Below the pieces are notes generated by a model. That model was not told the DNA's origin. It did not search any database and saw nothing but the letters and a program-made list of their open reading frames with translations. 64,000 nucleotides of DNA, from assembly GCF_039649665.1 (NCBI RefSeq), contig NZ_JBDJAW010000026.1:1-64000 (forward strand). Direction: 5' to 3'. Positions 15,725 to 63,722 of this stretch are shown here, piece after piece; position 1 is the first letter of the stretch, and each line of letters opens with the position of its first letter. The stretch is from Microbispora sp. ZYX-F-249 (GTDB lineage: Bacteria > Actinomycetota > Actinomycetes > Streptosporangiales > Streptosporangiaceae). Position numbers and translations under genes: made by a program.

Positions 15725-16162
15725 ATGAACACTGAGATACCCGAGGATCCCCAGCGCCGCGTGCTGCGCGAGCATCTGGAGACCATCCAGGTCCGCACCG
15801 AGAAGGCCTCGTCGTGGCGCGAGGCGGCCGAGCCGCTGCGCGGCCTGGTCAACCGCGAGGGGTACGTCCCGGTCAGCGCCCGGCTGGCGACCGAGGACCT
15901 CGATTTCCTCGCCGAGGCCCGCGAGGAGCTGCTGTGCTTCTCCGAGCTCGGCATCCGGCTGCTCGACCTGCATCAGCCCAGGGACGCGGGCGGCATCTCG
16001 AGCGACCCGGCGAACCCGATCCTGCGATGCCGGAGCTGCATGTGGCGCTGGCCGTGCCCCACGTTCCGGGCCATGGCGGAGGCGTTCGCCCCGCGCCGCC
16101 GTGAGGCCGCCCCCGGCATCCCTCCCTGGCGTGGCCAGCTGGAGCACCAGGGCGAACCGTGA
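15725..16162 (+). CDS. Hypothetical protein with Cys-rich CxxC segment
   Basis: A 145-residue protein not assigned to a known function. The first 60 residues are helical and charged. The C-terminal third has CRSCMWRWPCPTF, three Cys that could bind metal or form a redox site, followed by a Pro/Arg-rich tail. ATG 15725 (MNTEIPEDPQ) with GAGAG upstream is preferred over the longer in-frame start at 15623, whose extra codons are Arg-rich and look non-coding. The gene is transcribed away from the STAS gene. Confidence 0.6.
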   Translation: MNTEIPEDPQRRVLREHLETIQVRTEKASSWREAAEPLRGLVNREGYVPVSARLATEDLDFLAEAREELLCFSELGIRLLDLHQPRDAGGISSDPANPILRCRSCMWRWPCPTFRAMAEAFAPRRREAAPGIPPWRGQLEHQGEP

Positions 16163-16360
16163 CCCCGCCGACCTGCGCTTTCTGGGGGCTTCACGCGGCG
16201 CCAAGCGCGGGCGAAGTCGTCGTTAAGCGGCCGCCATGGAGGCGCTCCTAACTTCCCCTGTGTAAGGGCCGGCGTACGGAGACGGACGCCGGCCGACACA
16301 GGAGAGGACCGCAGGGCCCGGACGCGGATGGGCTTTCGGGTCCCGGATGGGAAGAGTGTC

Positions 16361-16831
16361 ATGAAACTGGTCTACAAGGTCCTGGCCTCACTGGTCGCCG
16401 CCGAGGTCGCCGTGCAGGCGATGATGGTCGTCCTCGGCGACGCCGGCCTGTTCAAGTACATCGAGCAGGGCGGCGTGATCGACAAGGCGACCGCGGAGAG
16501 CGGGGGGATCCAGTTCCCCGAATTCTTCGCCTTCATGGTCCACGGCATGAACGGGATGATGGTCATCCCGGTGATCGCACTGCTCCTGCTGATCTCCTCG
16601 TTCTTCGCCAAGATCCCCGGGGCGGTCAAGGGGGCCGCCCTCGTGGTCCTGCTCGTCGTGGTCCAGGTCTCCCTCGGCCTCCTCGGCCACCAGATCCCCG
16701 CCCTGGGCGCCCTGCACGGCCTGAACGCGCTGCTGCTGTTCAGCGCGGCCGTCCACGCCGCACGCCGCGGCCGCGGGGTGGAGGCGAGCGTCCCGGGCCG
16801 GTCGCACGCCCGTGTCGAGACGGTCGTCTGA
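16361..16831 (+). CDS. Four-helix membrane protein (DUF6220-like)
   Basis: A 156-residue integral membrane protein with four hydrophobic segments at about 5-25, 55-75, 83-103 and 110-130. Conserved-looking His residues sit in FMVHGMNGMM and ALGALHGLN, which could bind a metal or heme. I would place it near DUF6220, at low confidence. The start ATG 16361 has GGGAAG upstream. It ends 11 bp before the multicopper oxidase start, so the two are probably co-transcribed and may work together at the membrane. Confidence 0.65.
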   Translation: MKLVYKVLASLVAAEVAVQAMMVVLGDAGLFKYIEQGGVIDKATAESGGIQFPEFFAFMVHGMNGMMVIPVIALLLLISSFFAKIPGAVKGAALVVLLVVVQVSLGLLGHQIPALGALHGLNALLLFSAAVHAARRGRGVEASVPGRSHARVETVV

Positions 16832-16841
16832 CGGCGATCCG

Positions 16842-18389
16842 ATGGACAGGACTCGCCGTCGCGGCGCCCGGCTGCGCCTCGCCCTGGCGGGCGCCGCGAC
16901 CATCGCCCTGCTCGCCCCGCCGGCCTGGCTCTGGCAGGACAGCCTCATGCCCGGTACGTACTCGGTGATGGACATGGGGTACCCCGACTACGGCGGCGCC
17001 CTGACCCACGTGGCCGGCACATCGGAGCACTCAGAGCACCCACAGCACCCACAGCATTCAGGCCACAGCGCCGGACACACCGGGCACGGCGCGGCGGCGC
17101 GCAGCCTGACGTCGTTGACCGCCGACCCGGACCGCGAGGCCGACGTCGCGATCACCCTGGTCGCCCGCGAGCAGCGGTTCCGGCTGCCCACCGGCCGCCC
17201 GGTGGACGGCTACACCCTGAACGGCACCTCGCCCGGCCCGGTCATCCACGCGAGCGTCGGGCAGCTGGTGCAGGTCCGGCTGGTGAACGAGTCGGTGCCG
17301 GGCGGCATCACGCTGCACTGGCACGGCGTCGACGTGCCGGGCGCCGCCGACGGAGTCGCCGGCGTCACCCAGGACGCGGTCGGCGTGGGCGGGTCGTTCA
17401 CCTACCGCTTCGTCGCCGGCCAGGCAGGCACCTTCTGGTACCACTCCCACCAGGTCTCCCACGAGCAGGTGCGCCGCGGCCTGCTGGGCGCCCTCGTGGT
17501 CGCCCCAGAGCGCCCGTCCACCGGCGTCGTCGACGTCGTAGCGCTGATGCACCTCTACGACGGAGCCCGCACGATCAACGGCAGGGAGGGCGACGTGCGG
17601 ACCGAAGCCCGCCCCGGCGAGCGGGTGCGCGTGCGGGTGATCAACACGGAGAACGGCCAGACGCCCGTATGGGTCGGCGGGGCCCCGTTCCGGCTCGCCG
17701 CCGTCGACGGCACCGACCTGCACGGGCCCGCGCCCGTGCGGGACACCGCCGTGCTGGTCACGGCGGGCGGCCGCGCCGACATCGAGGTGACCATGCCCGA
17801 GGACGGCTCGCCGGTGCGGGTCCACGTCGGCGGCCGGGCCGGCGTCGTGCTCGGATCGCGGTCGTACGACGCGCCCGCCGTCCCCCGGCCCGCGGTCACG
17901 CTCGACCCGCTCTCCTACGGCACGCCGGCGCCGCTGGGGCTCGATGCCGACCGGCCCGACCGGCGGTTCGACTACGAGATCGGGCGCCGCCCCGGCTTCC
18001 TGGACGGACGTCCGGGAGTCTGGTGGACGATCAACGGCCACATGTTCCCCGACGTGCCGATGTTCGTGGTCGCCGAGGGCGACGTGGTGCGGGTGCGCAT
18101 CGTCAACGACAGCGGCGAGCCGCACCCCATGCACCTGCACGGCCACCACGCCGTGGTGCTGAGCCGGGACGGCGTACGGGCGACGGGCAGCCCGTGGTGG
18201 GTGGACTCGCTCGAAGTCGGCGCCGGCGAGACGTACGAGATCGCCTTCGTGGCAGGCAACCCCGGCATCTGGATGGACCACTGCCACAACCTGCCGCACG
18301 CGACCGAGGGTCTCGTCGCCCATCTCATGTACGAGGGGGTCACCACGCCCTTCACCGTGGGCGGGACCACCGCGAACGAGCCGGAGTGA
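16842..18389 (+). CDS. Secreted multicopper oxidase with His-rich N-terminal segment
   Basis: A 515-residue three-domain multicopper oxidase, probably exported or membrane-anchored through the helix at about 11-30. The copper ligand motifs are complete: HWHG, WYHSHQ, HPMHLHGH and HCHNLPHATEGL (type 1 Cys in HCH). Such enzymes oxidise Cu(I), Mn(II) or phenolics while reducing oxygen to water. Before the first cupredoxin domain, residues 63-82 contain seven His in HSEHPQHPQHSGH-like spacing, a likely metal-loading segment. ATG 16842 was chosen just after the stop of the membrane protein. The adjacent two-component genes on the other strand may control it. Confidence 0.92.
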   Translation: MDRTRRRGARLRLALAGAATIALLAPPAWLWQDSLMPGTYSVMDMGYPDYGGALTHVAGTSEHSEHPQHPQHSGHSAGHTGHGAAARSLTSLTADPDREADVAITLVAREQRFRLPTGRPVDGYTLNGTSPGPVIHASVGQLVQVRLVNESVPGGITLHWHGVDVPGAADGVAGVTQDAVGVGGSFTYRFVAGQAGTFWYHSHQVSHEQVRRGLLGALVVAPERPSTGVVDVVALMHLYDGARTINGREGDVRTEARPGERVRVRVINTENGQTPVWVGGAPFRLAAVDGTDLHGPAPVRDTAVLVTAGGRADIEVTMPEDGSPVRVHVGGRAGVVLGSRSYDAPAVPRPAVTLDPLSYGTPAPLGLDADRPDRRFDYEIGRRPGFLDGRPGVWWTINGHMFPDVPMFVVAEGDVVRVRIVNDSGEPHPMHLHGHHAVVLSRDGVRATGSPWWVDSLEVGAGETYEIAFVAGNPGIWMDHCHNLPHATEGLVAHLMYEGVTTPFTVGGTTANEPE

Positions 18390-23607: not shown

Positions 23608-25611
23608 TTAAGTGGTGACGCCACGCTCCGATCTGTCCTGGCAGGATGAAGATTCCGCCGAGTTCAGCACCAGCCGCATGCGGGTTCCCCCGCCGGACCG
23701 GGGCAGCGCGGCGACGTCCCCGCCCTGGGCCCGGGCGAGGTTGCGCACGATGTAGAGCCCCAGGCCGACCCCGCCGAACCTGCGCCGGTTGCCGCTGTCG
23801 GCCTGGACGAACCGCTCGAAGATCCGCTCCCGGTCGCCCGGCGCGATGCCCACTCCCTCGTCGTCCACCACCAGCACGACCCGGTCGTCCTCCGGCCACG
23901 CCTCGACCCGGATCAGGCCGCCGTCGGGGGAGTACTTGAACGCGTTCTCCAGCAGTTGGGCCAGGAGGATGTCGGTGGCCAGGGCGTCGCCGTACGCGAG
24001 GGGGAGGTCGGGCGGGATGTCCACCTCCAGCCGGTGCCGGTCTGACAGGACCGGCAGCCCCAGCGTCGCCGCGTGCACCCGGGCGGCCAGGTCGAAGGGC
24101 TCGACCCTGACCTTCAGCTCCTCCGCGCCCGCCCGCGCGCCGAGCAGGAGATGGTCCATGAGCTGCCCGAGCGAGCGGGCGCGCTCGGCGATCGTGTGGA
24201 CCGCCCCCCGCCGCTCCACGTCGGACAGGTGGTCCCAGCGGGAGTCGAGCGTGCTGGCGAAGCCGTGCACGATCGTGATCGGCGTCCGCAGTTCGTGACT
24301 GGTGGTGGCGAGGAACAGGTCCTTGGCCTCCTCCAGCTCCTTGGCCCGGGTCACGTCGCGGAAGTCGACGACGGTCTCCCCCGTCTCCCGGATCTCCGCG
24401 CACAGCACGTCGAGCCAGCGGCCGGACGGGAGCTGGAAGGTGAGCTTCTCCCCCGGCGCCGGCAGCGGGAAGGGCGGCGGCCCGCCGATGACCCGGTCCG
24501 CCGGGTGGCCGGTCAGCTCGGCCGCGGCCGGGTTCCACCGCACGACCGCCCCCGCGCCGTCCAGCACCGCGATGCCGTCGGCGCTCGCGTCGAAGACCGC
24601 CCGCTCGTGGGCGCGCTGCCGCACCGCGTCCTGGTAGGCCGTCGCGTTGGCGACCGCGATGCCGGCGTGCCCGGCGAGCAGTTCGAGCAGTTCGAGCTCC
24701 AGATGACTCGCCTTGCGCCGGGCGAACAACGCGTAGAGCGCTCCATAGGGACGCCCGCCGACGGCGGCGATGCCGACGGCGATCGTGTGCAGGCCGGGCA
24801 GGCGCGCCCAGATCAGGTCCGGGAAGCCCTCCGGGCCGGTCTCCAGCAGCACGGTCTTGCCGGTGCGCAGGAGCTTGGCGACCAGGCTCGTGTGCAGGTC
24901 GGCGGTGGCCCCGCGCAGCGTCTCCGGCAGCCGGTGGACGCCGACCAGGCGCAGCCGGTCCCCTTCTATGGACACGAAACCGCCGGCGTCGGCGCCGGTC
25001 AGCTCGGTCAGGCTCGCGGCGATCCGGTCGAGCACGACGGGCAGGTCGAGTTCGGCGTTGATGTCGCCGACCACGTCGGTCAGCCTCCGCACCAGGCGGG
25101 CGCGCCGCACCATCCTGCCGTGCGCCGCGTCGTCGTCCTCGGCGGCGTGGTAGACGTTCACGTACCCCAGCAGGACGCCGCCCGGCGAGCTCAGCGCGCT
25201 CGTGTCCACCCGCAGGTCGAGCAGCCGCCCGTCGCGGTGGAGACGTTTGGTGGTCAGCGACACCCGGCCGCCCGCGCGTACGCGTTCGAGTACGGCGTTG
25301 TGCTCGGCCATCAACTCGTCGGGCACGATCGGCGCCCGCCTGCCGAGCAGATCGGCCGCGGGCCAGCCGAACATCCGCTCGGCCGCCGCGTTCCAGCTCA
25401 GCACGGCCAGGTCGCGATCGAGCGCGACGATCGCGTCGGGGGAGCCGGCCAGGACCGCACGCGCGAGGCCCTCCTCGACGTCGCTCCCGTGGAGTTCCGC
25501 GCCGGGGCCGCCGCCCGGCTCCATGTCGAATTCGCCCGCGAGCACGTCCGCGGCGTCAGCGACCACGGGGGCGATGTCCGCCGCCCGGCCGTCCACGCTG
25601 CTGTCACCCAC
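23608..25611 (-). CDS. PAS-GAF-PAS hybrid-sensor histidine kinase
   Basis: A 667-residue soluble kinase without membrane segments. PAS 1 lies at about 45-165 (AVLAGSPDAIVALDRDLAVL), GAF at about 185-330, PAS 2 at about 335-430, then the H-box TTSHELRTPITIVHG with His439. The ATPase domain has LLENAFKYSPDGG (N), DDEGVGIAPGDR (G1) and GGVGLGLYIVRNLA (G2). The GAF/PAS layout suggests sensing of a ligand, redox state or gas. No receiver domain or adjacent response regulator is seen, so it is an orphan kinase. Confidence 0.92.
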   Translation of the reverse strand: MGDSSVDGRAADIAPVVADAADVLAGEFDMEPGGGPGAELHGSDVEEGLARAVLAGSPDAIVALDRDLAVLSWNAAAERMFGWPAADLLGRRAPIVPDELMAEHNAVLERVRAGGRVSLTTKRLHRDGRLLDLRVDTSALSSPGGVLLGYVNVYHAAEDDDAAHGRMVRRARLVRRLTDVVGDINAELDLPVVLDRIAASLTELTGADAGGFVSIEGDRLRLVGVHRLPETLRGATADLHTSLVAKLLRTGKTVLLETGPEGFPDLIWARLPGLHTIAVGIAAVGGRPYGALYALFARRKASHLELELLELLAGHAGIAVANATAYQDAVRQRAHERAVFDASADGIAVLDGAGAVVRWNPAAAELTGHPADRVIGGPPPFPLPAPGEKLTFQLPSGRWLDVLCAEIRETGETVVDFRDVTRAKELEEAKDLFLATTSHELRTPITIVHGFASTLDSRWDHLSDVERRGAVHTIAERARSLGQLMDHLLLGARAGAEELKVRVEPFDLAARVHAATLGLPVLSDRHRLEVDIPPDLPLAYGDALATDILLAQLLENAFKYSPDGGLIRVEAWPEDDRVVLVVDDEGVGIAPGDRERIFERFVQADSGNRRRFGGVGLGLYIVRNLARAQGGDVAALPRSGGGTRMRLVLNSAESSSCQDRSERGVTT

Positions 25612-62340: not shown

Positions 62341-63480
62341 TCAGGCCCGCTGGACGGCCGGTTCCCACAGCTCGGCGGCGCGGGCCTCGGCGAGAGCGCC
62401 GATGCGGGCCAGCGCCTCGGCGGCGGGCATCGCCGGCAGGGCGCGCCCGTCGCGCAGCCGCAGCGCGACCTGGTCGTTCCCGGCCTCCTTCGCGCCGATC
62501 ACCGCCTGGTAGGGCGCCAGGCGGGCGGCCCGGACGCGGGCGCCCAGGCTGCCGTGCTCGGGACCGGAGACCTCCGCCCGCAGGCCCAGCTCGGCGCAGC
62601 GCCGTACGAGCGCCTCGGCCGGGGGCAGCTCGGCCTCGGTCACCGGCAGGACCACCAGCTGGGTGGGGGCGAGCCAGGCGGGGAAGGCGCCGCCGTACAC
62701 CTCGATGAGGTGCGCGACGGCCCGCTCCACGCTGCCGATGATGCTGCGGTGGACCATGACGGGCCGGTGCCTGCCGCCGTCCGGGCCGATGTAGTGCAGG
62801 TCGAACCGTTCCGGCTGGTGGAAGTCGACCTGCACGGTGGACAGGGTGGCCTCGCGCCCGGCGCCGTCGGCGATCTGCACGTCGATCTTCGGGCCGTAGA
62901 ACGCCGCCTCGCCCTCCACCGCCTCGTACGCCAGTCCGGAGCGGTCGAGCACCTCGGTCAGCATGGCGGTCGCCCGCCGCCACATCTCGGGAGCCGCGAC
63001 GTACTTCCCGCCGGCCCCCGGCAGCGACAGCCGGTGGCGGACCGGCCGGATGCCGAGCACGGCGTACGCGCTCCTGATCATCTCCAGGGCCCCGGCGGCC
63101 TCGGCGGCGACCTGGTCGAGGGTGCAGAAGATGTGCGCGTCGTTGAGCTGGATCGCCCGCACGCGGGTCAGCCCGCCGAGCACGCCCGAGAGCTCCGAGC
63201 GGTACATGCCGCCCAGTTCGGCGACGCGCAGCGGCAACTCCCGGTAGCTGTGCGACCGGGACCGGTAGATCAACGCGTGGTGGGGGCACAGGCTCGGCCG
63301 CAGCACGACCTGCTCGCCCCCGAGGTCCATCGGCGGGAACATGTCGTCGCTGTAGTGGGACCAGTGCCCCGAGATCTCGTACAGCTCCCGTTTGCCCAGC
63401 ACGGGGGAGTACACGTGCCGGTAGCCCGCCCGCCGTTCGGCGTCGCGGATGTACTCCTCCAGGGTGTGCCGGATGACGGC
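62341..63480 (-). pseudogene. 5'-truncated short threonyl-tRNA synthetase
   Basis: The sequence encodes the catalytic and anticodon-binding domains of a ThrRS that never had TGS or editing domains (short actinobacterial paralogue). All three zinc ligands are kept: Cys in RPSLCPHH, His in NDAHIFC and His in VMVHRSI. Motif 2 region RVRAIQLNDAH and a C-terminal HGTP domain are intact. Homology continues in frame upstream of the first usable start (GTG 63414) as AVIRHTLEEYIRDAERRAGYRH to 63480. It then stops abruptly, with no ATG, GTG or TTG before an in-frame stop at 63553. About 35-45 N-terminal codons are missing. A 357-residue product from GTG 63414 remains possible. Confidence 0.7.
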
Positions 63481-63490
63481 TCCTATCGGG

Positions 63491-63511
63491 CAGACTAAAA
63501 AACTAGGTCTG
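63491..63511. repeat. AT-rich inverted repeat at the ThrRS break
   Basis: CAGAC (63491-63495) and GTCTG (63507-63511) flank TAAAAAACTAG. The A-run is unlike the surrounding GC-rich DNA and sits within about 10 bp of the place where ThrRS homology ends, so it may mark a recombination or attachment site. Confidence 0.5.
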
Positions 63512-63536
63512 CTCCGGCGTCGAGGGAGCGGGAGAC

Positions 63537-63722
63537 ATGGCTGATAGCCGGTTCACCATCGGACTGATCTACGACGTCACCAAGGTATTGGAGCAGCACG
63601 GCTACCGGCTCCCCGATGGCGACAGCCGGACCAGAGCACTCGGTGCGTTCTCCGGCGTGCTCCTGCACCTCGTTGAGACTTACGAGGGACGTCGAGACAG
63701 CCTCGGCGACGAGGTCGCCTGA
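63537..63722 (+). CDS. Small hypothetical protein, mobile-element type
   Basis: A 61-residue ORF starting MADSRFTIGLIYDVTKVLEQ, with GGGAGCGGGAGA as ribosome-binding site. It continues HGYRLPDGDSRTRALGAFSG and ends DSLGDEVA. Short proteins of this pattern (helix, HGYR-P motif, second helix) are, from memory, frequent in actinomycete integrative elements. It lies right after the ThrRS break and is followed by a foldable GGCCC/GGGCC stretch (63730-63770). Function unknown. Confidence 0.6.
   Translation: MADSRFTIGLIYDVTKVLEQHGYRLPDGDSRTRALGAFSGVLLHLVETYEGRRDSLGDEVA

Follow-up and report, generated by a model that had tools for sequence, protein, structure and literature searches.

Elements of the phiC31 and phiBT1 type carry an integrase with Resolvase and Recombinase domains, recombine across a 2-bp core, keep the integrase gene beside an att site, and split a host gene. 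Among the actinomycete integrative and conjugative elements (ICEs), the survey extract in PMC3218068 gives 19 of 144 AICEs as using serine recombinases, and describes Faln2929 of Frankia, a serine-integrase ICE that interrupts a gene for an endonuclease and undergoes excision. The locus described here is in a 64,000-nt stretch of Microbispora sp. ZYX-F-249 DNA (the window; positions prefixed C26 are on the contig from which it comes, many of them beyond the window). A 19,706-bp conjugative-type element has almost certainly entered a short paralogue of threonyl-tRNA synthetase (ThrRS) by serine-integrase attP × attB recombination with GG as the crossover, an arrangement in which the paralogue would be off while the element is integrated and excision would restore it exactly. 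The element resembles the phiC31/phiBT1 type in its Resolvase and Recombinase domains, 2-bp core, integrase beside an att site, and split protein gene. It differs from them in having ThrRS as its target; no paper linking a serine integrase, attB, and threonyl-tRNA synthetase was found in the open-licence literature. The features are as follows.

62341–63481, − strand: 3′ part of the short ThrRS paralogue (379 codons plus stop), with catalytic core and anticodon-binding domain, separated from its first 31 codons
63457–63481, − strand: attB right half-site (B′ arm), in the ThrRS gene
63482–63483: 2-bp crossover core of attR, CC on the + strand and GG on the gene strand; the other copy is C26:83188–83189 (attL)
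63484–63508, − strand: attP left half-site (P arm) with A-run
63490–63512: inverted repeat GCAGACTA-AAAAA-CTAGGTCTGC (A-run with CAGAC/GTCTG), overlapping the P arm
63537–63722, + strand: first ORF of the element, 61 aa
63800–64000, + strand: start of a 339-aa gene that runs on outside the window
C26:64001–83187: rest of the element
L004:14139–15215: tyrosine recombinase, mid-element
C26:81662–83101, − strand: predicted serine integrase, 480 codons after its ATG, directly beside attL
C26:83277–83422 (L017:6277–6422), − strand: threonine leader peptide (MKRACLTTTPETVPAR), conserved, its RNA having competing pairings; it lies beyond the window and precedes the ThrRS paralogue

The 3′ part is identified as ThrRS by TIGR00418 (E = 9e-115) and by matches to Pfam tRNA-synt_2b and HGTP_anticodon. 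It is of a short type, about 404–410 aa, which has no TGS or editing domain, starts at the core, and aligns from end to end with catalytic ThrRS constructs of roughly 400 aa (1evk and 4hwo, for example). A preliminary description made from the window alone had placed the end of this homology near 63480, after an in-frame continuation 22 codons above the first usable start, and both points hold: that start is GTG 63414, there is no in-frame ATG, GTG, or TTG between it and the TGA stop at 63555 (ThrRS frame, − strand), and the gene is interrupted at 63482–63483. DNA alignment with eight same-genus homologues stops at 63493, and window sequence further upstream of the junction is not ThrRS. The A-run and inverted repeat that had been remarked on beyond the break are indeed there, in the attP P arm, and the genes that follow are, as had been said, of another type.

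The same description had suspected an integration junction inside a tRNA-synthetase gene, with about 40 missing N-terminal codons to be sought at the far end of the inserted DNA. A 501-bp query taken from a relative located the lost 5′ part together with its own upstream region on the same contig, outside the window (C26:83188–83709, − strand, E = 2.9e-160), at the end of the element where the serine integrase lies. The missing codons number 31 (C26:83188–83279), on the same strand as the 3′ part, and the distance between the two cores (83188 − 63482) gives the 19,706-bp length of the element. When the host flanks are joined around GG they form an uninterrupted 410-aa frame, 95–96% identical to the intact genes of eight same-genus genomes. 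All eight of these relatives have an ATG 31 codons above the position of the window's break (two have further ATGs upstream), and they read MHDHRKLGRELGLFDTDPLIG[A/S]GLPYWLPDG. Misassembly is unlikely to have produced both junctions.

On the gene strand, attL reads CTGCCCGAC-GG-TGCAGGGTAC and attR reads TTAGTCTGCCCGATA-GG-AGCCGTC, where the uninterrupted relatives have CTGCCCGAC-GG-[A/C]GCCGT; GG is all that attL and attR have in common at the crossover. A 2-bp core flanked by attB and attP arms that are not identical, as found here, is what is expected of large serine integrases. The attB site spans codons 22–39 of the paralogue. The P arm and the P′ arm at the other end form an imperfect inverted repeat (13 of 25 positions), a symmetry that is only modest and is equalled or bettered by 295 of 14,303 GG-centred control sites (about 2%).

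In the integration proposed, attP would have recombined with attB at GG through the action of the serine integrase. With the gene split, the upstream region and initial 31 codons of ThrRS specify a 40-aa stub, whose stop codon is 52 nt before the integrase ATG. The 3′ part, deprived of its own upstream region and start codon, would be off; it probably stays silent as long as the element does not excise, since GTG 63414 is the first in-frame ATG, GTG, or TTG. Excision would give back the gene exactly. It usually requires a directionality factor, and none was identified in the element.

The paralogue is present (E ≤ 1e-120) in eight of the 14 other same-genus genomes, or nine of 15 counting the window's own, and six of the 14 have no match at that threshold. 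Elsewhere in the host genome, contig C14 has a ThrRS match in a 682-codon frame (43% identity), and a third match, on C17, is weak (27%). Because of the C14 frame and the six genomes without a match, loss of the paralogue seems tolerable, and the long ThrRS is taken to cover the essential function. More widely, the family has matches at E ≤ 1e-110 in 126 of 338 genomes, 122 of them starting at query residue 1–3. The four exceptions are the window genome and genomes G306, G205, and G290. In G205 and G290 (L092, L093) the paralogue is divided between two frames at one point, which could be due to sequencing errors. In G306 (L091) the first 24 codons are missing, and that genome has only two weak DNA matches to the upstream query.

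The predicted integrase matches Pfam Resolvase (PF00239, E = 1.5e-18) and Recombinase (PF07508, E = 2e-8) and the PHROG integrase family phrog_95 (E = 1.2e-71). For a zinc ribbon there is no Pfam match at E ≤ 0.05, and a group of cysteines is seen in the sequence. At the other end of the element the 61-aa ORF, with no PHROG match (E ≤ 0.01) and no NCBIfam match (E ≤ 0.1), is followed by conjugation-type genes. An FtsK/SpoIIIE-like translocator is encoded (phrog_12531, E = 3.9e-61; its Pfam ATPase matches are weak and below cut-off), along with replication-initiator-like HTH proteins (phrog_270, E = 3.2e-13), GntR, Cro/C1, and MerR-type regulators, and an HNH protein. Two large pentapeptide-repeat proteins have membrane-like N-terminal segments (L004:11521–13290 and 15836–17113, on C26). 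With an FtsK/SpoIIIE-type protein, a serine integrase, and insertion within a protein gene, the element is like Faln2929 and other actinomycete ICEs as portrayed in the extract of PMC3218068; it departs from Faln2929-type ICEs in its extra tyrosine recombinase. It may also differ from actinomycete ICEs in its replication proteins: among the element proteins scanned there was no RepSA, RepAM, or Prim-Pol, only the HTH initiator-like proteins.

Relatives of the FtsK-like protein (E ≤ 1e-100) occur in two genomes besides the window's own, of 338 (G309 and G179). Their elements have the backbone and the tyrosine recombinase in common with the one here, and their junctions are adjoined by other serine-recombinase-like ORFs (about 24% identity, E 1e-11 to 1e-14). 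The same backbone with different serine-recombinase-like ORFs suggests that integrase modules have been exchanged between elements. The target in G309 is a gene split at its P-loop, which we take from translated motifs to encode a CpaF/TadA-type ATPase (positions about 13750 of L094 and about 13400 of L099). In G179 the N-terminal end of what is presumably, on the same kind of evidence, a formate-dehydrogenase-type gene is involved (about 16150 of L095 and about 15530 of L100), with a new start seemingly supplied by the element. The tyrosine recombinase was set aside as the integrating enzyme: it lies mid-element and is present in both same-backbone elements, which have other serine-recombinase-like ORFs at their junctions.

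Integrase relatives were found in 20 of 341 family genomes (E ≤ 1e-40) and three of 394 class genomes (E ≤ 1e-60), the window's own being counted in both, and at three named loci. Viral contigs contained none, and matches in phages and plasmids were all below 60% identity (24–36% among the matches listed, 10 each). The closest relative found belongs to Streptosporangium carneum and shares 86% identity across 480 aa. There it adjoins codons 1–118 of a pirin gene, at QWMTAG; GG is again the core and the P′ arm is nearly identical. No P arm of that element's own was found. The site in pirin presumably differs from the phiC31 position in that gene. At the far end of the S. carneum element is a second 415-bp copy (94.5%) of the pirin upstream region and 5′ part, ending at the core (G305:C23:4889–5303 and 24922–25335; L042, L043), so that an intact pirin gene remains.

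Because this nearest relative adjoins pirin, the assignment of attB in ThrRS rests on one insertion, and the insertion could be a secondary, pseudo-attB event by an integrase family that favors pirin, at a ThrRS sequence resembling the pirin site. We consider this doubtful, if the best of the alternatives. In the window genome itself the pirin site has no interruption, and its left arm is identical to that in S. carneum. Leaving the core aside, this site matches the ThrRS attB at 29 of 50 positions, a level reached among 29,354 GG-centred control sites by only two that are not ThrRS copies. Use of pseudo-attB sites is documented for the phiBT1 serine integrase in the extract of PMC5937489. The S. 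carneum ThrRS paralogue, however, is whole and has a similar site which the element there did not use. The two integrases have 154 of their first 160 residues in common, against 261 of the other 320, and late divergence of this kind is expected if DNA recognition has shifted. Either specificity has moved or ThrRS is a secondary site.

The preliminary description took the gene to be recently decayed, or its short product to be in use, and we find both very improbable. Broken paralogues do occur elsewhere in the family, in G205, G290, and G306. Against decay, the paralogue has no internal stops, and over 404 codons the joined gene has dN/dS of 0.10–0.19 against the eight relatives, which among themselves give 0.08–0.25; recent insertion and a gene still being restored both fit these values. 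Use of a short product is unlikely because GTG 63414, the first usual start, is 53 codons inside the protein, and no AGGAG-type site lies within the 25 bases before it. Alignment turned up no same-length homologues beginning at its equivalent: the eight relatives have their ATG 53 codons above, with conserved coding sequence in between. The gene has been split by a site-specific element instead.

There is next to no chance that a one-base sequencing or assembly error breaks an otherwise intact gene, since window sequence above LPDGA is not ThrRS, the real upstream part is 19.7 kb away beside the integrase gene, and a one-base change therefore leaves the gene broken. That the word LPDGA returns on removal of one base, as had been pointed out, is correct; the cause is a different one. 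The window has one extra base near 63484–63486, its junction reading CTGCCCGA-TA-GGAGCC versus CTGCCCGA-C-GG[A/C]GCC in the eight relatives. The element's own half-site also contains CTGCCCGA, and the offset arises because both left arms contain this sequence, in registers that differ by one base. The shift is the attP/attB boundary, neither decay nor sequencing error.

The region upstream of the split gene, now placed ahead of the integrase, encodes a threonine leader peptide. In all 32 leaders examined (30 family loci minus L069, the window genome's own truncated copy, plus its own leader and those of G205 and G290) the peptide contains ACGACGACG, with three Thr codons, and ends in TTTPxxVPAR. 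Among 20 further picked genomes, TTTP is followed by E or D in all 20, and 18 have the VPAR end. Of 296 class genomes, 38, the window's own included, contain an exact 33-base leader pattern (reversed control, 0), and at ten of ten fetched loci from these 38 the pattern precedes a ThrRS match of 70–81% identity. In Streptomyces lividans a thrL leader of the same type, MKRVRPFLETTPGFVPAR, has been reported for thrS (extract of PMC8079986). The two arrangements are alike in their Thr codons, VPAR end, and subsequent hairpin before a ThrRS gene, and differ in that the gene here is a short paralogue, the Thr codons are three in a row, and an element splits the gene. An earlier survey, in the extract consulted, gives no conserved element upstream of Actinobacteria threonine operons and lists attenuators at trpS and leuS (PMC1262725).

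RNA pairings were compared in an alignment of 23 leaders (six of the 32 and 17 of the 20, with L102, L103, and the most diverged, L121, left out). Three structures, a hairpin around the Thr codons, a second and strong hairpin, and a sequestor of the ribosome site, have 90.8% of their cells paired; 11 of the pairs are changed on both sides, a number reached by one of 500 shuffles. A competing helix, between the loop region of the second hairpin and the sequestor, is paired in 94.0% of cells (38–55% for slid versions), with 16 cells changed on both sides, which none of 500 shuffles reach; kinship inflates both these counts. Two of five measures for the competing helix fall within the shuffles (pairs changed on both sides, 3, 96/500; pair types, 7, 500/500). 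No pair of the leader-peptide hairpin shows changes on both sides in this alignment. The window genome's own leader forms seven of eight pairs in the alternative helix. In the ThrRS leader region Rfam gave three matches, none of which attains its gathering score.

Insertion would have brought the integrase gene right up to the threonine leader and upstream region of an emergency ThrRS, so that it now follows them. It is conceivable, if improbable, that the element uses this host threonine sensor, low threonyl-tRNA raising integrase and excision restoring the spare ThrRS, as a reversible starvation switch.

What the sequence itself shows is the pair of junctions, the 2-bp core, the integrase gene next to attL, homologues that are intact, and a frame that runs on without a break when the flanks are joined. 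With both gene halves and the 2-base crossover point identifiable, the locus is a new and clean instance of a known process, site-specific insertion splitting a spare ThrRS. The mechanism is ordinary and cleanly resolved; what it adds is the site choice of sister integrases and a possible threonine-controlled integrase. The mapped attB, attP, attL, and attR set, for an uncharacterized Streptosporangiaceae serine integrase, may serve as an integration tool, and with two integrases of 86% identity sitting at two different genes, site choice can be put to the test. Whether a mobile element may be wired to the threonine status of its host likewise becomes testable, through the order of leader, ThrRS stub, and integrase.
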